64,000 bases of DNA, taken from positions 124,001 to 188,000 of the forward strand of contig NZ_VDUZ01000007.1 of NCBI RefSeq assembly GCF_008039615.1, in the 5' to 3' direction. A program made the position numbers and the translations under genes. The notes beneath the pieces are model-generated. The model searched no databases. It was not told the origin of the DNA and saw nothing but the letters and a program-made list of their open reading frames with translations. The DNA comes from Vineibacter terrae (GTDB lineage: Bacteria; Pseudomonadota; Alphaproteobacteria; Reyranellales; Reyranellaceae). Within the stretch, counting starts at the first letter, position 1. The number at the start of each line of letters is the position of its first letter. Shown here one piece after another: positions 49,234 through 61,956 of the stretch.

Positions 49234-52200
49234 TTAATAGTCGTACTCCCACGCTAAGCCAGCTCGGCCGGTGGAATTGATCCCTATGTCGGCATCGAGT
49301 TTGACGCGCGGCAGTATCTCAATCTGGACGGCACCGCGTCCCCCACCAAGCCCATTGAGCCCGAGCGCGCGGCGGATGAACCCAGGTGAACTCCCTGACG
49401 GGCCGATGCCAGACAGCTCGCCAACAGCCGCCATTAGTTGCCCGAGCTCGGTGGGCCCCAGTCGCGCGGTGCCTTTCCCGAAAAGAAGTTGAGCGATGAT
49501 CTCGTCCTGCGGCAACATTGGCGACGATCTCAGTTCGATCTTCGGTTCGCTCGCCGGGCCCGTCACCTTGACAACAACTGTGACGTTGCCGCCGCGGGTC
49601 GTGGGTTCAAGGTCAAGAATCGGTGCGATTCGATCTGCATTGGCGAGCGTAACAGCGCCGCGCGAGAAGGTGAGATTGCGTCCGAGCAGGCTGTAGCTGC
49701 CGCGCCTCATCTTGAGGCCGCCGACAACTGACGGATTAGCGCTCGTGCCCTTCACGGCTAGCTCGCCGCCCACCTCGGCATCGAGGCCTTGGCCGCGCAC
49801 GAACACGCCGCGTGGCGCACTGACCTTCAGGTCGAGCGCCAGCGGGCGGGCCGGTGAACCGGTCCTGTCTTTTTTGGGCGCACCGGCGCCGACCTCGCGA
49901 ACCGGCACGGACGCCACCGACTTCGCGCCGGTGCCGACGGCAGCATTGATTTCCGCCCGGTCGATCTGGATCTGGCCTTCTGCCGTCAGGCCGTCCGCCA
50001 GCGACCCGTGCAGACGCAGCGACGAGGTCAGGTCGACGATCAGGTCGCGTCGCGTCATCAAGCGAGCATTGCGCGTCTTCAGCCACAGATCTATGGCCAA
50101 TGGCAAATTCGGATCCAACTGCACCTCGCCGCCGACCACGACATCGCCCTTCCCGACTGCTGGAAAATCCACCCGCTCGACGACGATGCGCTCGCCGGCC
50201 ATTCGGATCGTGCCGTTGCCTTTCGACAGAATCATTCCTTCGCGAGGCACGCTCAACCGAACGTCTTCCAGTCGCATCGTCCCGGTGCCCGTCGGCCGGC
50301 CTCGCCTGACGGCGAGCGCCACATCGACGAGTGCGCGGCCAGCAAGCAGCTGGATGTCGGGCCCGATCAGGCTGGCGAAGATCACCAGATCGATTGGCCC
50401 GACTACTGTCAGCTGCCCATCGGGCAAAGCGCCCCGGCTCGGCAATTGCCCGGTGATCCCGATCGCCAGGCGGCTGGTGCCGGCCGCCAAGCGTGCGTCG
50501 GCGGATAGCACACGCTCTCGCATTGCTACCTTGCCAGTCAGCAAGGCGGCCGGGATCGACGCCACCGTCATGCTGCGCAACCGCGCGTCGCGCACGGTGT
50601 AGGTGCCGGCGATCTCCGGATTGGCGAGCGCGCCGCGGACCTGCAGCTGTGCTTGCACTGTGCCGTCCAGCGGCGCCTCGCCCCCGACTAGGGCCGCCAG
50701 CTCAGCCAGTTTCAGCGCCACGACGTCGACGCTAAGCTCACTGTTCGCCGCGTCGATGGTACCGGCTACCCGGATACTGCCGCCTGCTACGTTCAGCCGC
50801 AGGCCTTCGACTGTGATGCGCTCGCCCGACTGTCGCAGCCGCGTCGCACCAGCCAGACCAAACGGCCGGCCAGCGTAGGTGCCGCGCAGGCTCACGATAT
50901 CGGCGATCGCTTCGCGACCGTCACGTCGGACTGTGAGCGCGCCGTTCAAGATGACACCCGGTCCCGATGCTTCGGCACTCGCGGCAATGGCATTCCAATC
51001 GCCCGATGCCCTGACCGACAGCGTGCCTAGCCCGGCCACGCCGCGCAGCCTGTGAGCCATGATGCTGGCCTCGAAGGTGGCATCGCCCAACGGATCGCCG
51101 ATAGTGGCATCCGCGGTCAGGGTGTCCGCACCGGAGTCAGCGAGCGCCAGACCAGTCCCGCGTATGCCGAGCTTCAGTTTGCCAGCGCTGGCCACGTTAT
51201 CGGAGACGATGTCGACTTCCAGCCGCCCCGCAAGCGGCTGGCCGGTCAGCATGCTAAGCTGCTTGAGGTCTTCCACTAGAAGGCGCGCCGAACCGCGCGC
51301 CGTGGTGCGATCGACAGCCAGATCGCGGATCGTCAGGTTAGTGCCGCCCAGTGCCCCGTTGAACTCGGAAATCAGCAGCCGCTCCCCACCGACGGCCGAG
51401 ATGCGGCCACTGGCGCGCAATTGTTGCCCTGCACTGCTGCCGTCCAGCTGCAGCGTGGCGTCGACTTGATCGGCGCCAAGCACCAAGTCGGCGTCCAGCG
51501 TCAGCCGCTCAAGATTGGTGCCGTCGACCTTCGCCTGCGCGATGGCGGCTCTCAGGCTCACAGTGCTGCGCTCATCGCTCGATTGGACATGGATGTCGCT
51601 GCGCAGAGTGCCGGAAAGGCGCCGGTCCACTGCCCCAAGCCGTGGTAACATGATGATCGCGTCGAGTGTGCCATTTCCACCGGCACCCGCGCCTCGCGCT
51701 GTCGCTGAAATCGCGTCCGATGCGATGGTGGCCCACTCGAGCCGCCAACGCTGCTGCCGATCGATGCTGCCACTGGCCGAGAGGCGCAGTTCCGGTGCCA
51801 GGAGAACGTGGGGCACGTTCTGCACGATGCCATCACGGAGGGTAGCATCTACCGCCAGGACCGGCTCAGCACGCGTACCCGTCAACCGTAGCTTCACCTG
51901 AGCGGAGCCGGCCACTGGCGAGGTCATGATCGGATTGAACGCGGACATGTCAGGGACTTCGATCATCACGTTTGCCAAAACTCCGCCGTCTGTTGTCAGC
52001 GTGCCCGTGCCCGCTACGCTGAACTGCGATGAGGCAAGATCGAACGATGTCAGACCAATAGCGCCGCTGCTTTCCTGCCCGCCTGCAACAGCCACGCGCA
52101 CGTCGCGCGCCGCAAGCTCACGCCGGGCCGCATGCCATACGACCTCACCGAGGGTGCCCCTGAGCTCTCCTCGCGGCCAGACGCCGGCGGCGGGATTTGC

Positions 52201-53007
52201 TTCTCGCACGGTCGCAGTCAGGGCGAGCTCGCGCGTCGAGGCTTCAGCCAATGCAACATCGGCGGCTCGCAGAGATAGGGTGCCATCAATTGCCGTCATC
52301 GTGCCCGCGGCTTCCATGTCGAAACGTACGTCGCGCCAGGTCGCGCCAGGCACTATCGCCGCCAGCACCGCGGCATCTCCCCCGATGGCAGACAGCCGTA
52401 GCTGCAAGCGCTTGTCCGTTGGCACAAAGCGGCCGCTGGCCGTGGCCTCGAGTGGTGCCGCTTTCAGTCGAAGCGCGCGCACCGCGATGGCACCAGCCGG
52501 TTCGATCAGGATGTCGGCTTGGACCGATGCCGGCTGTGCCAGAGCTGCCTTCCACACAGGATCGGGGATCTGCCCGCCCGTAACCTGCAGTGCCAGCGCG
52601 ACCTGACGGCCGGCATCGTTGCTCCGAATACGCACAGTGCCGGTGATGCCGAGGACATCGCCACCTTCGACTGAGAGGTGCGCATCGCCAACCAGGTCCG
52701 TCAGCTGTGCCCGAAAGCCGCCGGCGATGCTCGGCAGGTCGGGGCGACCGAGCAAAGTGGCGACTATGCCACCTTCGCCTTCCTCGAACTCGCCGCGGGC
52801 GTTGAGCACACCCCGGCGACCGTCATAGCTGGCGTCCAGCAAGACGCGCCCTGTCCTGTCGTCATTGCGCGACGCATTGAGCGACAGGCTATTGACACCG
52901 TCCAAGCCCTTAAGTTGTGCGTGCCCATTGATGCGCCAGCGCGAGGCGACGCCGGCCAACGGCGAGCCCAGCCACAATTCACCGATTTCGAGCCTCTCCA
53001 CGGTCAC
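49234..53007 (-). CDS. tamB: TamB-like translocation/assembly protein, main part
   Basis: 1257 residues of repetitive beta-strand composition, as in the bridging AsmA/TamB protein that spans the periplasm and moves lipids or assists autotransporters. The C-terminal DUF490 region has PRGVFVRGQGLDAEVGGELA, EIIAQLLFGKGTARLGPTEL and the barrel-facing end AGLAWEYDY. The N-terminal anchor is in a different frame (53004-53417); the join lies in a C7 tract at 53026-53032. GTG at 53007 is a reading-frame entry rather than a known start. No TamA gene is adjacent. Confidence 0.88.
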   Translation of the reverse strand: MTVERLEIGELWLGSPLAGVASRWRINGHAQLKGLDGVNSLSLNASRNDDRTGRVLLDASYDGRRGVLNARGEFEEGEGGIVATLLGRPDLPSIAGGFRAQLTDLVGDAHLSVEGGDVLGITGTVRIRSNDAGRQVALALQVTGGQIPDPVWKAALAQPASVQADILIEPAGAIAVRALRLKAAPLEATASGRFVPTDKRLQLRLSAIGGDAAVLAAIVPGATWRDVRFDMEAAGTMTAIDGTLSLRAADVALAEASTRELALTATVREANPAAGVWPRGELRGTLGEVVWHAARRELAARDVRVAVAGGQESSGAIGLTSFDLASSQFSVAGTGTLTTDGGVLANVMIEVPDMSAFNPIMTSPVAGSAQVKLRLTGTRAEPVLAVDATLRDGIVQNVPHVLLAPELRLSASGSIDRQQRWRLEWATIASDAISATARGAGAGGNGTLDAIIMLPRLGAVDRRLSGTLRSDIHVQSSDERSTVSLRAAIAQAKVDGTNLERLTLDADLVLGADQVDATLQLDGSSAGQQLRASGRISAVGGERLLISEFNGALGGTNLTIRDLAVDRTTARGSARLLVEDLKQLSMLTGQPLAGRLEVDIVSDNVASAGKLKLGIRGTGLALADSGADTLTADATIGDPLGDATFEASIMAHRLRGVAGLGTLSVRASGDWNAIAASAEASGPGVILNGALTVRRDGREAIADIVSLRGTYAGRPFGLAGATRLRQSGERITVEGLRLNVAGGSIRVAGTIDAANSELSVDVVALKLAELAALVGGEAPLDGTVQAQLQVRGALANPEIAGTYTVRDARLRSMTVASIPAALLTGKVAMRERVLSADARLAAGTSRLAIGITGQLPSRGALPDGQLTVVGPIDLVIFASLIGPDIQLLAGRALVDVALAVRRGRPTGTGTMRLEDVRLSVPREGMILSKGNGTIRMAGERIVVERVDFPAVGKGDVVVGGEVQLDPNLPLAIDLWLKTRNARLMTRRDLIVDLTSSLRLHGSLADGLTAEGQIQIDRAEINAAVGTGAKSVASVPVREVGAGAPKKDRTGSPARPLALDLKVSAPRGVFVRGQGLDAEVGGELAVKGTSANPSVVGGLKMRRGSYSLLGRNLTFSRGAVTLANADRIAPILDLEPTTRGGNVTVVVKVTGPASEPKIELRSSPMLPQDEIIAQLLFGKGTARLGPTELGQLMAAVGELSGIGPSGSSPGFIRRALGLNGLGGGRGAVQIEILPRVKLDADIGINSTGRAGLAWEYDY

Positions 53008-53417
53008 GGGCAGCAGCGATCCGGTGGGGGGGATGCGCCTTCCGCCGACGCTGGACGCGGTGGCGCGTGTGGGGTGCGCTCGAGCAAGGCGCGGGCCGCG
53101 TGCACGTTATGGATGACCAGATGGCCGTCGAGCAGCGCCAGGAACGACCAGCGGATGTGCGCGTCCTCTGCCGTGAGCCAAAGGCCCGTTCCGTCGCCGA
53201 TTTCTATGCGGGTGAATCTAAGGTCTGTAGGGAAAAAGCCGGAAGGCCCATCGAAACGTACAGTGCGATCATCGCCGGACGCGACCGACGCGACGAGACT
53301 GAATAGGGCCCGCTGACCCTCGCCGGTCTGCAGCGCGGCGAAGAGCAGCAGCAGAGAGCCCGCAAGGCCGGTAAAGATTCTAAGAATGAAGCGCCGGACC
53401 CTCAGCACAGGTCTCAA
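53004..53417 (-). CDS. tamB: TamB N-terminal part, out of frame with the rest
   Basis: 137 residues: signal anchor (FILRIFTGLAGSLLLLFAAL), then FSLVASVASGDDRTVRFDG and the WSFLALLDGHLVIHNVHAAR block of TamB starts. The frame runs into a stop at 53004, just after a C7 tract; an eighth C would join it to PTGSLLPVTVERLEIGELWL of the main part, giving about 1,395 residues, the normal size. Confidence 0.85.
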   Translation of the reverse strand: MRPVLRVRRFILRIFTGLAGSLLLLFAALQTGEGQRALFSLVASVASGDDRTVRFDGPSGFFPTDLRFTRIEIGDGTGLWLTAEDAHIRWSFLALLDGHLVIHNVHAARALLERTPHAPPRPASAEGASPPPDRCCP

Positions 53418-53944
53418 TCCTCCCTCAGCGGTGCCGACAATGGTCCTCGCCAGCTCAAGCGCGACTTACCGTACACCCGGTACCCGACCGTGCCATACGG
53501 GCGCGGCCTCGTATGGGGCGTCCAGGATACCCGCTTCGCGCCACACGAGAGGGGAGTTTGGCCCCCGGGCCAGCCCGCACTACGCACGCGGCCCCGTATG
53601 GAGCCTACGTCGTCGTTGGGACGGACCACCCCGGGCGGGCGGACATACGTCTTGGGGCCAGCAAGTCTGAAAAGCGAGACTCAGCGAGGCGTTCAGGATG
53701 ACAGCGCTCTACGCCTTGGGACTGCAACCAGAGAAAACAAGCAAGCTGCGTATTTGCAAGATTAGGATACGTGCCGAGTTGCTTGAGATCTACCGAATCT
53801 TAATGATCCCAAGACAATGCCAGTGCGCGTCGGAAGAATAAGTGACAGGTCCGGGTTCAGACAGGCCCTCCTTCAGATCGTATCGCAACTCCTTTGAAGT
53901 CGTTGCGACAGAAAGCTGGCAATCGTTGGTGGGGAGAGAAATCT
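53418..53944. other. Porin upstream region, no gene recognised
   Basis: This is more than 500 bases with high-GC frames on both strands and no convincing gene. GGGGAGAG near 53930 is the porin ribosome site. From about 53700 on, the base composition drops, consistent with a promoter and leader. Confidence 0.5.
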
Positions 53945-55156
53945 GTGAAGAGCGTGATACTTGGCACGACGTCGCTGGTCGCTGTTGCTGCAACGCCGTT
54001 CATGGCGATGGCAGCTGATCCGATCAAGCTCCAGCTGGGCGGCTTCTGGAATGCCTACATGACGTTTGGAAAGATTGATCGGGACATCACAGGTGACTCC
54101 GTTGGCACCAGCTACCGCCCGGAGACGTTCCGGTATGAGGGGGAGATCTGGTTCTCCGGCGAGACCAGGCTCGACAACGGCACCACGATCGGCATCCGCG
54201 TCGAGCTGGAAGGCCTGTCCCAGGGTGGCGCCAACACCTCGAGAAACGACCAGCTCGACGAAGAGTATCTGTATGCCTTCGGCAACTGGGGGCGTATCGA
54301 GTTCGGCGCCAGGGATGCGGCATCCTACAAGAGCGAGCGCGGCACGCCGTCGGTCCTGCCGGGGTGGGGCTTCCACGACCCGGACTTTGCCAACAACGGC
54401 AGCGGCTTCTCGAGCGCCAACAACGGCGGCCGGGATCGCGGCACCAATCCTGGCCTTGCCGCGTCCAACTCGAACAACTCAGGTGACGCCACCAAGATCA
54501 CCTACTACACGCCGGTGGTTGCCGGCTTCCGGGCCGGCGTCTCCTACACGCCCGCGTTCAACACCAGTGGTCCGGCGGCGACGTGCTTCTTCCGCGGCGG
54601 CGGTGGCCCGGCGACGAACTGCCCGAAGAACGCCAATGCCTGGCACAACGGCATTGACGTGTCGGCCACTTACGCCGGCCAGTTCGGCGGCGTCTCGGTC
54701 GACCTGTATGGCGGCTACATGACGGCCGGCTTTGATCGCGGCACGACGACCAGTCCCGCCGACAGCGGATCGGGCCGCTACAAGAGCTGGGCGGCGGGCG
54801 GGCGCATTGGCTTCGAGGGGTTCACGTTCGGGGGCGCCGTGGGCCGTGACAACAACGGCCTGAAGGGCCGCAACGCGACCCGCTGGTATTCGGCCGGGAT
54901 CATGTACGAAACCGGCGCGTGGCAGATGTCGGCCGGCTGGTGGGGCGGGCGCAACGACGACGGCACCGCCGTCGTCGGGACGCAGAATGCGCCCGGCACG
55001 GACAAGATGGACATGTTCGAGCTCGGCGTCACCTACCTGCTGTCGCCAGGCATCAGGCTCGTGGGTGGCCTCACATACACGATGGGCTCCGGCCAGTCGA
55101 AGAGCGAGAAGGCCGACGCCTGGGCACTGCTCCTGGGCACCTCGCTGCAATTCTAG
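53945..55156 (+). CDS. Alphaproteobacterial porin
   Basis: A 403-residue outer-membrane porin. GTG 53945 follows GGGGAGAG by about 7 bases and yields a clean signal peptide (MKSVILGTTSLVAVAATPFM to AMA). The mature part alternates in barrel strands (FRYEGEIWFSGETRLDNGTT, FGNWGRIEFGARDAASYK, FGGVSVDLYGGYM, WAAGGRIGFEGFTFGG) and ends in an aromatic Phe (GTSLQF), the BAM recognition signal. Gly/Asn-rich loops are typical. It is 27 bases before the serine dehydratase gene, perhaps in one transcript. Confidence 0.92.
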   Translation: MKSVILGTTSLVAVAATPFMAMAADPIKLQLGGFWNAYMTFGKIDRDITGDSVGTSYRPETFRYEGEIWFSGETRLDNGTTIGIRVELEGLSQGGANTSRNDQLDEEYLYAFGNWGRIEFGARDAASYKSERGTPSVLPGWGFHDPDFANNGSGFSSANNGGRDRGTNPGLAASNSNNSGDATKITYYTPVVAGFRAGVSYTPAFNTSGPAATCFFRGGGGPATNCPKNANAWHNGIDVSATYAGQFGGVSVDLYGGYMTAGFDRGTTTSPADSGSGRYKSWAAGGRIGFEGFTFGGAVGRDNNGLKGRNATRWYSAGIMYETGAWQMSAGWWGGRNDDGTAVVGTQNAPGTDKMDMFELGVTYLLSPGIRLVGGLTYTMGSGQSKSEKADAWALLLGTSLQF

Positions 55157-55183
55157 GCAAGCACACAGTGGGAGGAAGCGATC

Positions 55184-56791
55184 ATGAGCACTTCAGACAG
55201 GAGTGACGAGCTGTTCGGGGCGTTGCCTGACATGTCGGCCGTCCCATCGAATATCGATCGTCGCTCGTTCTTGATGCGCAGCGCGGTCATCGGCGCTTCG
55301 GCAGCGCTGACCGGTACCGCCTGGACGCCTGAGGCGCGGGCGCAGCAGGCGGCAAAGGAGGCGGGGGCAACCAAGCTGGGTGCGACGCTTTCGCCTGACC
55401 TCAACGTCGTGAAGGCATCCAAGGGCCCGGTGATGACCGTGCTGGAGGAGTTCTACAAGGTCGGGCCCGGGCCTTCCAGCTCGCACACGATCGGCCCGAT
55501 GCGCATCACGTACGACTTCTACCAGCGCTGCACGAAGCTGCCGGCGGAGCAGCTGGCGCAGGCGACCGGCCTGAAGGTGCATCTTTTCGGGAGTCTCAGC
55601 GCCACCGGCAAGGGCCATGGCACCGAGCGCGCCTCGCTGGCGGGTCTGGTCGGCAAGGAGCCGGCGACGGTCAATCCGCTGTTCCTCGACGAGATGATCG
55701 CGAAGCCGCAGCAGACCTACCCGGTGAAGCTCGGAGGCAAGACGTTCAACCTGTCGCTTGCCGACATCATTTACGACTCGGTCAAGGGAGATTTTCCCCA
55801 TCCCAACACCATGACCTGCAAGCTCATGGCCGGCGACAAGGTGCTCTACGAACTGGAGTACTACTCGGTCGGCGGCGGCTTCATCGAGTGGAAGGGCTAT
55901 CAGCCACCTAAGAAGGGGCAGCCGAAGTATCCCTACGCGACGATGAAGGAACTGCGGCAGCATGCGGAAGCCAACAAACTCTCGATCGCCCAGGTGATCC
56001 TGGCAAACGAGATCGCGGTGTCGGGCAAGACCGAGGAACAGATCAACGCCTTCCTGGACAAGATCGCCGGCGCGATGCTCGCGACCGTGAAAACCGGCCT
56101 GTCGCTCAAGGACGACGTGCTGCCCGGACCGATCAAGCTTCGCTCCAAGGCGGCGACCGTCTGGGAGCGCGCCCAGGACGACAAGTATGAGGCCGACCGC
56201 GCGATCGCGATGGTTTCGGCCTTTGCGCTGGCTGCCTCCGAGGAGAATGCGCGCGGCCACCTGGTCATCACGGCGCCGACCGGCGGCTCGGCGGGTGTGA
56301 TGCCGGCGGTCGTGTACGCTCTCAGCGAGAGCAAGCGCAAGGTGCCGATCGAGAAGATCCGTCAGGGCCTGCTTGCCGGCGCAGCCATCGGCTATCTCTG
56401 CAAGCACAGTGCGACCCTCTCCGGTGCGGAAGGCGGCTGCCAGTCCGAGATTGGTGTCGCCTCGGCAATGTCGGCGGCCCTCATCGCACAGATCATCGAT
56501 AGCCCGCCCCAGGTGATCGAGAATGCGGCGGAGTCCGCCCTCGAGCATCATCTGGGCATGACCTGCGACCCGGTCGCCGGCTACGTCCAGGTTCCTTGCA
56601 TCGAGCGTTGCGCCTTCGGGGCGGTGAAGGCCTGGACAGCCGTCATGATCGCGACCAACGAGATCGCATCGCGCCATCGCGTCGATCTCGACACGACGAT
56701 CAAGACGCTGGCCGACACCGGTAGGGACATGTCGGCGAAGTACAAGGAGACGAGCGAAGGAGGGCTGGCCGCAAACCTTGTTCTTTGCTGA
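55184..56791 (+). CDS. sdaA: L-serine dehydratase with a twin-arginine signal
   Basis: A 535-residue single-chain iron-sulphur serine dehydratase. GPGPSSSHTIGPMR opens the beta domain, TAPTGGSAGVMPAV is the substrate loop, and CKHSATLSGAEGGCQSEIG with MTCDPVAGYVQVPCIERC holds the cluster cysteines. The N terminus contains IDRRSFLMRSAVIGASAALT and ends ARAQ, a Tat signal, which the usual cytoplasmic enzyme of about 455 residues lacks. Tat export would suit a folded iron-sulphur protein. It would form pyruvate and ammonia, perhaps outside the inner membrane. Confidence 0.92.
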   Translation: MSTSDRSDELFGALPDMSAVPSNIDRRSFLMRSAVIGASAALTGTAWTPEARAQQAAKEAGATKLGATLSPDLNVVKASKGPVMTVLEEFYKVGPGPSSSHTIGPMRITYDFYQRCTKLPAEQLAQATGLKVHLFGSLSATGKGHGTERASLAGLVGKEPATVNPLFLDEMIAKPQQTYPVKLGGKTFNLSLADIIYDSVKGDFPHPNTMTCKLMAGDKVLYELEYYSVGGGFIEWKGYQPPKKGQPKYPYATMKELRQHAEANKLSIAQVILANEIAVSGKTEEQINAFLDKIAGAMLATVKTGLSLKDDVLPGPIKLRSKAATVWERAQDDKYEADRAIAMVSAFALAASEENARGHLVITAPTGGSAGVMPAVVYALSESKRKVPIEKIRQGLLAGAAIGYLCKHSATLSGAEGGCQSEIGVASAMSAALIAQIIDSPPQVIENAAESALEHHLGMTCDPVAGYVQVPCIERCAFGAVKAWTAVMIATNEIASRHRVDLDTTIKTLADTGRDMSAKYKETSEGGLAANLVLC

Positions 56792-56805
56792 GCCAGCCAC
56801 GGCAT

Positions 56806-56889: not shown

Positions 56890-57057
56890 ATGGCATCTTC
56901 CGACGGCAGTGCGTCCGGGCATGCGCCGCATGCCAAGTATCAGCGGCTGATCGCGGCCGCCGGGCAGGTGCCCGTGGCGGCCACCATCGTCCTCCATCCC
57001 TGCGACGAGACCTCGTTGCGCGGTGTGCTCGAAGCTGCTGAGGTCGCGGGTGGCTAA
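56890..57057 (+). pseudogene. Truncated phosphate acetyltransferase N terminus
   Basis: 55 residues only: HAPHAKYQRLIAAAGQVPVA then IVLHPCDETSLRGVLEAAEV, the opening of phosphate acetyltransferase or enoyl-CoA hydratase/phosphate acetyltransferase fusions. The stop follows at 57057 and the catalytic domain is gone. It joins a regulator fragment within 80 bases. Confidence 0.6.
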
Positions 57058-57134: not shown

Positions 57135-57284
57135 GAGATGAGACAGGTCACGACGGTCGCCTTGGACCAAAACTTCGGGAACATGAGCCGCTTCAGCAGT
57201 CACTACAGACGCTTGTTCGGGGAGTCTCCATCCCAGACGATCCGCGCGGCACGAATGACCTTTCACGCAGCTGAGCAGGATTAG
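57135..57284 (+). pseudogene. AraC-type C-terminal HTH fragment
   Basis: The frame reads EMRQVTTVALDQNFGNMSRF, then SSHYRRLFGESPSQTIRAAR, the second HTH and signature of AraC regulators. No start or ligand domain precedes. It is similar in kind to the full AraC gene at 62272. Confidence 0.65.
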
Positions 57285-57360: not shown

Positions 57361-58638
57361 ATGAGCGGGATGTGCAGAGCCCTGTTCTATGCCTGGATGT
57401 CCATCGCGCTCTTTGCGCTGTCGCCTGCGTTGGCACAAGCCCCCGCCCCAAGACCGGCAACCACATCGCCCCAGCAACCCCTCTACAAGCCGGAGGAGCT
57501 CGACCAGATGCTGGCGCCCATTGCGCTCTACCCGGATTCGCTCCTGGCGCAGGTCCTCATGGCCTCGACCTATCCCTTGGAAGTAGTCCAAGCCGCGCGC
57601 TGGTCAAAGGCCCACCCCAACCTCAAGGGCGATGAGGCGGTGAAAGCCGTGCAGGAGCAGACCTGGGATGTCAGCGTGAAGTCGCTGGTCGCATTCCCCC
57701 AGGTGCTCGCCCAGATGAACGACAAGCTTGAGTGGACGCAGAGACTGGGCGACGCGATGCTGTCTCAGCACCAGGATGTTGCCGCCTCGATCCAGCGGCT
57801 GCGGAAGATGTCCTACGACGCGGGCAGACTGCAGACGGGAGACCAGCAAAGGGTGACTGTCCAGCCGGCCTCGGCGCAGACGCCCGGCGCGCCCCAGACA
57901 ATCATCATCGAGCCGGCCTCGCCGCAGGCCGTCTACGTGCCCTCCTATCAACCGTCATGGGCCTACGGTGCCTGGCCGTATCCCGCCTACCCGCCCTACT
58001 ACTATCCACCGCCGGTCGGCTACGGTTATGGCGCCCCCCTGCTTACGGGCTTCATGTGGGGCGCCGGAGTCGTCGCGGCCGGGGCGATGTTCTCGAGCTG
58101 GAACTGGGGTGGCGGCGACGTCAACGTCAATGTGAACCGGGCCGCCTCCATCGACCGCCGTTTCGATGGCAACCGGTACCAGAACGGGAAATGGAGCCAT
58201 CAGCCGGACCATCGTCGCGGCGTCGCCTACAGAGACGCCGGCAGCCGCAGCAGGTACGGCGCCTCCGTCCCCGGTGCCGACGGCCGTCGCGACTTCCGCG
58301 GCAAGGACGTCGTGGGCCGTCCGGGCGGACGCGGTGGTATCGGCCAGGGACAGCGGCCCGGTGGCGTCGGCCAGGGACAGCGGCCCGGCGGCATCGGCCA
58401 GGGACAGCGGCCTGGCGGTGTTCAAGGCCAGCGGCCAGGCGGCATCGGCCAGGGACAGCGGCCGGGCGCCCGCCAAGGCCCACAGGGCGGTGCATTTGGT
58501 GGCATCGACCGCGGCGGTCAGCGTGTCAATCGAGACGCGGCCCGGGGACGAGCGAGCGGCGGGTATCGTGGCAGTGGTGGCGCGCGCGGCGGTGGCGGAC
58601 GTGGTGGTGGCGGACGTGGAGGTGGAGGTCGGCGATGA
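57361..58638 (+). CDS. DUF3300 domain secreted protein
   Basis: A 425-residue protein with a Sec signal peptide (AWMSIALFALSPALAQ) and GGAGGG just upstream of the ATG at 57361. LDQMLAPIALYPDSLLAQVL and LVAFPQVLAQMNDKLEWTQR are DUF3300 hallmarks. A membrane-like GFMWGAGVVAAGAMF and a 120-residue Gly/Arg-rich low-complexity tail follow, with six GQGQRPGG-type repeats. It overlaps the DUF2950 gene by ATGA. The function is unknown; the pair often occurs together. Confidence 0.93.
   Translation: MSGMCRALFYAWMSIALFALSPALAQAPAPRPATTSPQQPLYKPEELDQMLAPIALYPDSLLAQVLMASTYPLEVVQAARWSKAHPNLKGDEAVKAVQEQTWDVSVKSLVAFPQVLAQMNDKLEWTQRLGDAMLSQHQDVAASIQRLRKMSYDAGRLQTGDQQRVTVQPASAQTPGAPQTIIIEPASPQAVYVPSYQPSWAYGAWPYPAYPPYYYPPPVGYGYGAPLLTGFMWGAGVVAAGAMFSSWNWGGGDVNVNVNRAASIDRRFDGNRYQNGKWSHQPDHRRGVAYRDAGSRSRYGASVPGADGRRDFRGKDVVGRPGGRGGIGQGQRPGGVGQGQRPGGIGQGQRPGGVQGQRPGGIGQGQRPGARQGPQGGAFGGIDRGGQRVNRDAARGRASGGYRGSGGARGGGGRGGGGRGGGGRR
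58338..58470. repeat. 27-base tandem repeats in the DUF3300 tail
   Basis: Copies of GGCCAGGGACAGCGGCC with a GGCATC or GGCGTC spacer encode GIGQGQRPG and variants. Copies differ in single codons, so they may vary in number between strains. Confidence 0.7.
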
Positions 58639-59606
58639 AACCGAGGTCACCCATAAACTTGCGCTACATCCTGCTGACACTGTGCTGCGTCGTGGCCACA
58701 AGCATGGCCCCGACCTTGGCACAGCAGAAGCCGCAACAACAGCAGCCTGCCGCCGCTGCCGCGCCGCCTACCGGCCAGCAGGCCTTCGAGACGCCCCAGG
58801 CGGCGTTCGACGCCTTCGTCGCCGCCGCGCGCAGCGCCGACCCCGCCCAATGGCAGAAGGTGCTGGGCGCGAACTATAAGGATCTCATCCCCGACGACAT
58901 CGAGGACGTCGAGGAGGTGCGCAAGAAATTCCTCGAGGCCTACGCCGCCGGCAACAAGATCAACATGGACGGCGATTCCAAGGCCGTCCTCGAGGTCGGC
59001 ACCCACGGCTGGACGATGCCGATTCCCCTGGTCAAGGGCGGCGACGGCTGGCGCTTCGACATCGTGGCCGGGGCCGACGAGATCGGCAACAGGGAGCTCG
59101 GCCGCAACGAGCTCGCCGTCATCCAGGTGCTGCTGGCCATCGTCGACGCGCAGCAGGAATACGCCGAGGCCGATCCGATGAAGACCGGCACGGGCCAGTA
59201 TGCGCGCCGGCTGCTGAGCTCGCCGGGCAAGAAGGATGGTCTCTACTGGTCATCGCAGCCGGGCGAGCCCGAGAGTCCGCTGGGCGATCTGATCGCGCAC
59301 GCCCAGGCTGCCGGCGCCACCGAGGGATCGGGCTACCACGGCTACCACTATCGCCTACTCTACGCGCAGGGGCCTGACGCGAAGGGTGGCGCCCGAGACT
59401 ATATCGTGAACGGCAGGATGATCGGCGGCTTCGGGGTGATCGCGTGGCCCATCACCTACGGCACGACCGGAAACACGACGTTCATCGTCAGCCAGGATGG
59501 CGAGGTCTTCGAGAAGGATCTCGGGGCGAACACGACCGCGGCTGCAGGCCAGATCAGGGCCTTCAACCCGGACAAAAGCTGGAAAAAGTCCGATACTACG
59601 CCGTGA
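58635..59606 (+). CDS. DUF2950 domain secreted protein
   Basis: A 323-residue protein starting in an ATGA overlap with the DUF3300 gene. Signal peptide SPINLRYILLTLCCVVATSM to LAQQ; then QAFETPQAAFDAFVAAARSA, GDGWRFDIVAGADEIGNREL, GKKDGLYWSSQPGEPESPLG and GYHYRLLYAQGPDAKGGARD, the DUF2950 pattern. Gln-rich leader after the signal. Function is unknown. Confidence 0.92.
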   Translation: MKPRSPINLRYILLTLCCVVATSMAPTLAQQKPQQQQPAAAAAPPTGQQAFETPQAAFDAFVAAARSADPAQWQKVLGANYKDLIPDDIEDVEEVRKKFLEAYAAGNKINMDGDSKAVLEVGTHGWTMPIPLVKGGDGWRFDIVAGADEIGNRELGRNELAVIQVLLAIVDAQQEYAEADPMKTGTGQYARRLLSSPGKKDGLYWSSQPGEPESPLGDLIAHAQAAGATEGSGYHGYHYRLLYAQGPDAKGGARDYIVNGRMIGGFGVIAWPITYGTTGNTTFIVSQDGEVFEKDLGANTTAAAGQIRAFNPDKSWKKSDTTP

Positions 59607-61329: not shown

Positions 61330-61956
61330 TCATGCCGAGAGCATCACGCTGCCGGAGAGGAGGGCTGAACGGCGGATTGTTCTTCGTCCGCTATGGAGAA
61401 CAAGGCGACGGACTGCGCGAAACCGTTGAGTTCGCGAGTGGCAAGCTGCTGTATCGGCACGACGCCGGTGGTGGGGGCGGCCACAATCCCCGGCAGGGCC
61501 GCCCTGGCGATAGCCGCTCTCGATCAGGCGGCACTGGCCGGCAAAGACCTTGGCCGAGAACTCGCGGCTGTATTCACCGGCCATGGCGCGCTTAACGCCC
61601 TTGACGATGGTCGACACCGGGCTGCCATCGTTCTCAAATTGCTCGGCGCAGTACTGGACGCTGATGCCGGCCCGGCGGCAGACGTACTCGTAGTAGGCGC
61701 TTTCGTCGGCGTCCTGAAACCGACCCCAGCGGCTTACGTCGTAAACCAGGATGGTGCTGAAGTCGGCAGTCCCGTTCTGGACGTCCTCGATCAGGCGGAT
61801 CAGGGCGTCGCGGCCGTCCAACCGCAGGCCACTCTTGCCCTCGTCGGCATAGGTCCTGACGACAATGGTCCCGCGCCGTTCACCCGCACCGGTAGCGAGT
61901 TCAGCATTCTCGGTGTGGCGTGGCAGTATCGATGGGGCGCAGGATATTGAGAACAC
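61330..61956 (-). pseudogene. Serine recombinase (resolvase) with broken ends
   Basis: The frame reads VVRTYADEGKSGLRLDGRDA, STILVYDVSRWGRFQDADES and STIVKGVKRAMAGEYSREFS, the catalytic domain of large serine recombinases. The N-terminal catalytic Ser motif is not found in this frame, and from about residue 155 (RQGGPAG) the reading no longer matches a recombinase domain, so it is truncated and frame-broken. It is a mobile-element relic near the window's right end. Confidence 0.65.

Follow-up and report, generated by a model that had tools for sequence, protein, structure and literature searches.

Iron-sulphur (Fe-S) L-serine dehydratases are regarded as cytoplasmic enzymes. Fe-S proteins are also exported by the twin-arginine (Tat) pathway, as folded cofactor proteins with an RR signal, and the familiar examples are redox proteins. 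In the tdc operon of Escherichia coli, TdcC is a serine/threonine symporter and TdcD an acetate/propionate kinase. The gene groups described below resemble this operon, in which an Fe-S serine deaminase, a Pfl-type enzyme, a kinase and a transporter are grouped for anaerobic amino-acid fermentation. According to excerpts of PMC7476758, sdaA, sdaB and tdcG of E. coli encode serine deaminases and tdcE a 2-ketobutyrate formate-lyase; excerpts of PMC9040844 also treat the Pfl-like TdcE and the tdc operon, and describe dehydratase clusters of such type as solvent-exposed and vulnerable to oxidation. Among solved structures, the best match to the protein studied here is the Legionella pneumophila enzyme 4rqo (residues 88-535 of our protein, 37-38% identity). 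His61 is the catalytic base and Cys458 the 'tail' ligand of this enzyme, as stated in a section of PMC12647591.

The window, i.e., the whole stretch of 64,000 nucleotides of Vineibacter terrae that was analysed, carries an sda gene for a [4Fe-4S] L-serine dehydratase that is preceded by a predicted Tat signal peptide (Table 1). The likeness to the exported Fe-S proteins is that of a putative folded cofactor protein with an RR signal; the difference is that the tagged Sda would be a Lewis-acid Fe-S lyase. Among the matches listed in the open-licence literature, neither an exported serine dehydratase nor a Lewis-acid Fe-S lyase as a Tat substrate was found. PMC10673610 deals with a D-serine enzyme and has no bearing on an exported L-serine dehydratase. 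The sequence evidence leans towards the exported deaminase of a serine-fermentation set, probably working at little or no oxygen.

Table 1. Features of the sda region, with positions in the window.
Feature	Position	Strand	Evidence
Outer-membrane porin (Porin_4)	53894..55156	+	PF13609, 1.6e-31 at 53936-55153
Likely ribosome-binding site of sda, GGGAGGAAG	55170..55178	+	Read ahead of ATG 55184
Tat-tagged [4Fe-4S] L-serine dehydratase (sda)	55184..56791	+	Open reading frame of 535 aa, ATG; Pfam and NCBIfam profiles
Predicted Tat signal peptide, residues 1-53	55184..55342	+	TIGR01409 and alignment; ARA/Q cleavage by eye
Twin-arginine motif DRRSFLMR, residues 25-32	55256..55279	+	Sequence and alignment
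SDH_beta domain, residues 89-237	55448..55894	+	Pfam, far above cut-off
His145, equivalent of Legionella catalytic base His61 by alignment to 4rqo	55616..55618	+	
SDH_alpha (catalytic) domain, residues 264-529	55973..56770	+	Pfam, far above cut-off
Cys406, clade-specific	56399..56401	+	27/27 clade rows; Tyr, Phe or Ile in 80/82 others
Cys419, predicted Fe-S ligand	56438..56440	+	Aligned to 4rqo; 27/27 clade, 82/82 other rows
Cys461, predicted Fe-S ligand	56564..56566	+	Aligned to 4rqo; 27/27 clade, 82/82 other rows
Cys472, predicted Fe-S ligand	56597..56599	+	Aligned to 4rqo; 27/27 clade, 82/82 other rows
Cys476, clade-specific	56609..56611	+	27/27 clade rows; Asn in 82/82 others
C-terminal Cys535, aligned with 'tail' ligand Cys458	56786..56788	+	27/27 clade, 82/82 other rows
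Truncated phosphate acetyltransferase remnant, 55 codons and stop	56890..57057	+	Homology search

A preliminary description had read this gene as an Fe-S L-serine dehydratase with a Tat signal (DRRSFLMRSA, a hydrophobic core and an ARAQ cleavage site), 27 bases behind a porin gene, and these readings hold. The porin reading frame ends at 55156; translation of the porin probably starts slightly after the TTG. Both SDH domains score far above their cut-offs, and the model of the single-chain L-serine ammonia-lyases (TIGR00720, sda_mono) gives 423.2 bits against a cut-off of 345.1. The twin-arginine motif is followed by 17 uncharged residues (33-49) and then by A51-R52-A53/Q54, and the NCBIfam model TIGR01409 (TAT_signal_seq) matches residues 24-53 with 19.3 bits (cut-off 16.7, E 0.0011). 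A second sda copy of this genome, on contig C48, has an uncharged stretch of 17 residues at the same place. A chance origin of the motif is rejected because only 88 of 20,000 shuffles of the first 89 residues produced RR with at least 13 uncharged residues, and because the motif is conserved.

The leader would be bypassed by initiation further downstream, which had been named as a case against the signal. The natural 'cytoplasmic' start would be Met84 (MTVLEEF), and translation from it appears less likely since GGGAGGAAG, which is identical ahead of the copy on C48, stands before the first ATG, with the weaker AAGGG alone before Met84. The objection is thereby weakened, though not removed. An assembly artefact as the origin of the tagged gene is rejected, as the gene occurs in many separate assemblies and in two diverged copies here.

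Relatives were collected with six exact peptide patterns, and 80 of the 125 matches were retained, so that the clade of the window protein may be larger than the 27 loci counted here. These loci have 61-98% identity, followed by a gap down to 50% or less in the species-genome scans; the window itself (L001) and L011 (the same as L003, on the same contig) are omitted, and L002 is the second copy of this genome. The pattern [DN]RR-x-F-[LM]-x-R with at least 12 uncharged residues behind it was found in 25 of the 27 clade loci (all but L028 and L032) and in none of 88 remoter members of the family, some of which start at a contig end (among them L044, L046, L047 and, by its open frame, L083), while for a few with stops or without the anchor motif a short piece alone was scanned. 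The Tat-tagged orthologues for which a search had been proposed do exist, and the suspicion that the leader might be missing from all close homologues falls away. When at least 13 or at least 15 uncharged residues are demanded, 21 of the 27 loci are retained, and the stretch is only 12 residues long in the tagged L023, L026, L029 and L031. The RR pattern itself occurs in four of the 88 distant members, but with at most seven uncharged residues behind it.

In the alignment, the leader drifts among the tagged members and [DN]RR[AST]F[LM][MIV]R is kept. Three members carry within the hydrophobic stretch what we take, by the usual rule, to be lipoboxes (IAGC in L024, LTGC in L025 and L030). TIGR01409 was listed (E up to 10) for 11 of the 25 members of alignment A1, 22 of which have RR (the others being L028, L032 and the outgroup L034), against none of 25 other Sda proteins in a like scan. 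The model leaves 14 of the 25 unlisted, including at least 11 that have RR, and so fails to pick up half or more of the tagged proteins; a Pfam scan of the 25 members listed no Tat model. TatC was found in this genome (228 bits) and, with this one included, in 21 of 22 genomes searched; the exception is a 3.1-Mb metagenome bin (G427, with locus L026). These comparisons speak for a Tat signal on what is in other respects a canonical Fe-S L-serine dehydratase, and a protein of the window type is very probably exported.

The predicted enzyme shares with the Legionella protein the fold, the cluster ligands, the catalytic His and the C-terminal Cys, and differs from it in the N-terminal extension that bears the Tat signal (about 85 residues) and in Cys476, Cys406, Gly367 and Ser369. 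The residue alignment was limited to rows 400-490 residues long that had sufficient sequence upstream, namely the window with 26 of the 27 loci (L020 was left out) and 82 of the 88 others. His145 is shared by at least 95% of the rows in each group (27 of the clade, 82 others), and Cys419, Cys461 and Cys472 presumably correspond to Legionella Cys343, Cys385 and Cys396. The Asn behind the CIER motif, which marks the other 82 rows without being a published criterion of the family, is replaced by Cys476 in the clade. Residue 367 changes from Asn (98% of the other rows) to Gly (96% of the clade rows), and residue 369 from Ala (95%) to Ser (100%). L028 and L032, which lack the tag, have Cys406 and Cys476 too. 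A structure model built from 25 sequences has a mean pLDDT of 72 and a TM score of 0.83, by target length, against 4rqo; its first 80 residues are of low confidence, with a helix at 26-43 and block means of 48-52.

In a tree of the part behind the leader, with 30 of the 88 others for comparison (12 nearest, 18 random), the 27 loci and the window group together as a single clade (support 100/100), whose stem is long, at 0.91 changes per site, and whose neighbour is a Desulfovibrio sequence. L028 falls within a group of tagged members and L032 stands at the base of one half of the clade; the tag may have had one gain and two losses or two gains and one loss. The tagged members are catalogued under Pseudomonadota, Acidobacteriota and Verrucomicrobiota, and several are metagenome bins. 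This spread makes horizontal transfer of the tagged gene likely, and bin errors may account for part of it. Spread by plasmids found no support: none of the 189 plasmid records that matched reached 60% identity. The gene is rare: a clade member turned up in 2 of 385 genomes sampled from the class, as judged by identity, and in 2 of 299 from the phylum (in both cases this genome, G000, and G005), in 4 of 37 genomes of the family including this one (3 of 33 outside the genus), and in none of three other genomes of the same genus. A second Sda (40-42% identity) accompanies the clade member in 4 of 22 genomes (G418, G427, G429 and G430), its match starting only past the extension, at query residue 77-89; the other 18 hold clade members only (E up to 0.001).

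The long stem of the clade and its changes at 476, 367 and 369, positions that are fixed or nearly so in the 82 other rows, would also agree with an exported Sda whose active site has been retuned, so that its substrate is no longer, or no longer only, L-serine, and which forms pyruvate or another 2-keto acid for Pfl from some other beta-hydroxy or beta-thiol amino acid of the periplasm. This is unlikely: the cluster ligands, the C-terminal Cys and the catalytic His are all kept, all 25 members of A1 are listed for TIGR00720, and the PflB encoded beside the copy on C48 passes the formate C-acetyltransferase equivalog (1121 bits, cut-off 994). L-serine is likely to be the substrate.

The genes beside sda set the clade apart. 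PflB is encoded near sda in 20 of the 27 clade loci, and at least one of PflB, PflA, AckA and Pta in 21, against 0 of 56 control loci in both cases. The controls were loci of other relatives (L034-L090 without L082), and these zeros are to be read with contig ends that clip loci of clade and controls alike and with queries taken from the clade, so that remote homologues in the controls could escape, though the E limit of 1e-15 is mild for such proteins. Genes for PflA (17 of the 27 loci), AckA (6), Pta (7), AspT-like proteins (16) and MFS carriers (6) were found near sda, and the searched porin type in 6 loci only (OprD in 5, Porin_4 in 1); the same queries gave no match in the controls. The fetched flanks of L021, L024, L028, L030, L032 and L092 contain no match to PflB, PflA, AckA or Pta; those of L021, L024 and L032 are short, those of the other three are not.

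The gene order is variable. In ten loci (nine of Microvirga, and L033) pflB lies directly downstream of sda, with a gap of 69-195 bases to the first aligned base; in the nine Microvirga loci it is followed by pflA and the antiporter gene. A tenth locus from Microvirga, L012, has the pfl and antiporter genes upstream of sda on the same strand. L022 and L094 carry their pfl genes on the opposite strand. L025 carries the order sda-MFS-pta-ackA-pflB-pflA. An MFS gene follows sda in L018, L023, L025, L026, L029 and L031, and a gene for an OprD-family porin adjoins it in L021, L022 and L092-L094. Two further AspT-like matches, 25-27% identical to the Microvirga one, stand in tandem upstream of the tagged sda of L023 (212-3396, + strand). 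Tested against the tdc type of linkage, the clade shows PflB in 20 and AckA in 6 of its 27 loci, with neither at the window copy itself. As read from tree and neighbourhood, the tagged Sda is a distinct subfamily linked to genes of pyruvate formate-lyase, acetate kinase and transporters.

The genome of V. terrae contains two sda copies, in the window and on contig C48, of 98% amino-acid identity, and no further match. On C48 (locus L091), sda is preceded by pflB, pflA, the gene of an AspT/YidE-type antiporter and a porin gene, and this pflB is the sole Gly_radical match of the genome. The one acetate kinase adjoins Pta on contig C13. The window copy is not beside pfl genes. The porin-sda pair is duplicated between the two places (window 53911-56798, L091 7687-10570; 94.0%), as a unit of 2.9 kb with ends close to gene borders. 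The two proteins differ at nine residues. In the core, 68 codons differ synonymously and 4 non-synonymously (dN 0.004, dS 0.242); for the first 85 residues the numbers are 11 and 5. A degenerating duplicate is rejected, based on a core dN/dS of about 0.016 between the copies.

Behind the duplicated pair, the Pta remnant retrieves, as a query, the Pta of the same genome on C13 (67% over 51 aa, E 2.9e-17); the Pta protein of L025, used as a tblastn query for the remnant, gave no convincing match. A short reading frame at 57138-57284 follows the remnant and looks, by eye, like an AraC-type C-terminus. The segment 56890-57284 (+ strand) is perhaps a rearrangement scar. Further in the surroundings, adjacent DUF3300 and DUF2950 genes occupy 57361-59606 (+ strand), and a resolvase-type recombinase gene lies at 61330-61956 (- strand), about 4.5 kb from sda. 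On the other side, a TamB-like gene (49234-53417, - strand) is divided over two overlapping frames, 49234-53007 and 53004-53417. Pfam TamB matches the large part only, and the split is likely a frameshift or an assembly error rather than two genes.

The loci differ from the tdc operon in their transporters, with AspT-like or MFS carriers and porins, and in having PflB with PflA in place of TdcE. A search for PF03222, which we take to be the SdaC/TdcC symporter family, gave no match in 19 of 20 genomes that hold a tagged member, with E. coli as a positive control; the one match, in a Sphingomonas genome, scores 22.3 bits (cut-off 22). In L091, the AspT-like protein shares the duplication domain of the AspT/YidE/YbjL family (186 bits, cut-off 72), but with 206 bits it is below the cut-off of the aspartate-alanine antiporter equivalog (547). 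Four MFS proteins that were scanned have weak matches to organic-anion models. On such scores, the substrate and the direction of these carriers are guesses.

In the proposed exported fermentation, Sda would fold and gain its [4Fe-4S] cluster in the cytoplasm, pass the Tat translocase folded and stay in the periplasm, or at the membrane as a lipoprotein in three relatives. L-serine would enter via an outer-membrane porin and be split in the periplasm to pyruvate and ammonium. An AspT-like or MFS carrier would import the pyruvate, perhaps against formate or acetate, pyruvate formate-lyase would convert it to formate and acetyl-CoA, and phosphate acetyltransferase and acetate kinase would yield ATP. 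The whole would be a tdc-like route, divided by the inner membrane because its first step is exported, in which the amino-acid symporter is replaced by other carriers and, in some loci, porins. Whether imported pyruvate feeds Pfl seems evenly balanced. More tentative is the idea that the ammonium stays outside the cell altogether and that pyruvate alone is taken up, against the fermentation acids formed from it and at no cost in ion gradient, with Cys406 and Cys476 as adaptations of the cluster enzyme to the outside; the exchange of pyruvate against formate or acetate is, on its own, rather doubtful.

Pfl and AckA are cytoplasmic, and the import of pyruvate would be needless if the leader were mostly unused or often bypassed by a downstream start, with Sda acting mainly as a cytoplasmic, tdc-like deaminase. 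The two of the 27 loci whose enzyme has no signal and the AAGGG ahead of Met84 would fit such a course. It is quite unlikely, given the RR kept in 25 of 27 loci while the rest of the leader drifts, the lipoboxes and the TIGR01409 match; the second, unextended Sda of four genomes and the missing PF03222 symporter speak against it as well.

For the exported fermentation, a hint of oxygen control is seen in part of the clade only. FNR-like boxes stand upstream of sda in 3 of the 27 loci, against 0.25 expected, though the three belong to one subclade (L021 1239-1300, L022 5895, L093 near 8760). L091 has none, and the window has one site, at 1973, far from sda, with none near the gene. FNR control as a general rule is unsupported by this distribution. 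Crp-family genes with clustered N-terminal cysteines are found in L092, L093 and L022. That Sda is exported for nitrogen scavenging, for pH defence by periplasmic ammonia or for removal of toxic serine, with the Pfl link reflecting shared anaerobic expression, is very unlikely: deamination outside would release ammonium and the FNR-like boxes would suit it, but sda of L025 adjoins a complete carbon route from pyruvate to acetate.

Set against the tdc operon, the deaminase of the exported fermentation would carry a Tat signal and work mostly without a symporter of the TdcC type. By its domains, cluster ligands and catalytic base the protein belongs to the family of Fe-S L-serine dehydratases, and in its gene company it resembles TdcG; it differs by the Tat signal, the fixed changes of the catalytic domain and the different transporters. 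If the proposal is true, amino-acid fermentation can begin outside the inner membrane. Transport energy would be saved, and the AspT/YidE-type antiporters would gain a testable role. Bare annotations as 'L-serine ammonia-lyase' would then mask the place where the tagged proteins work.
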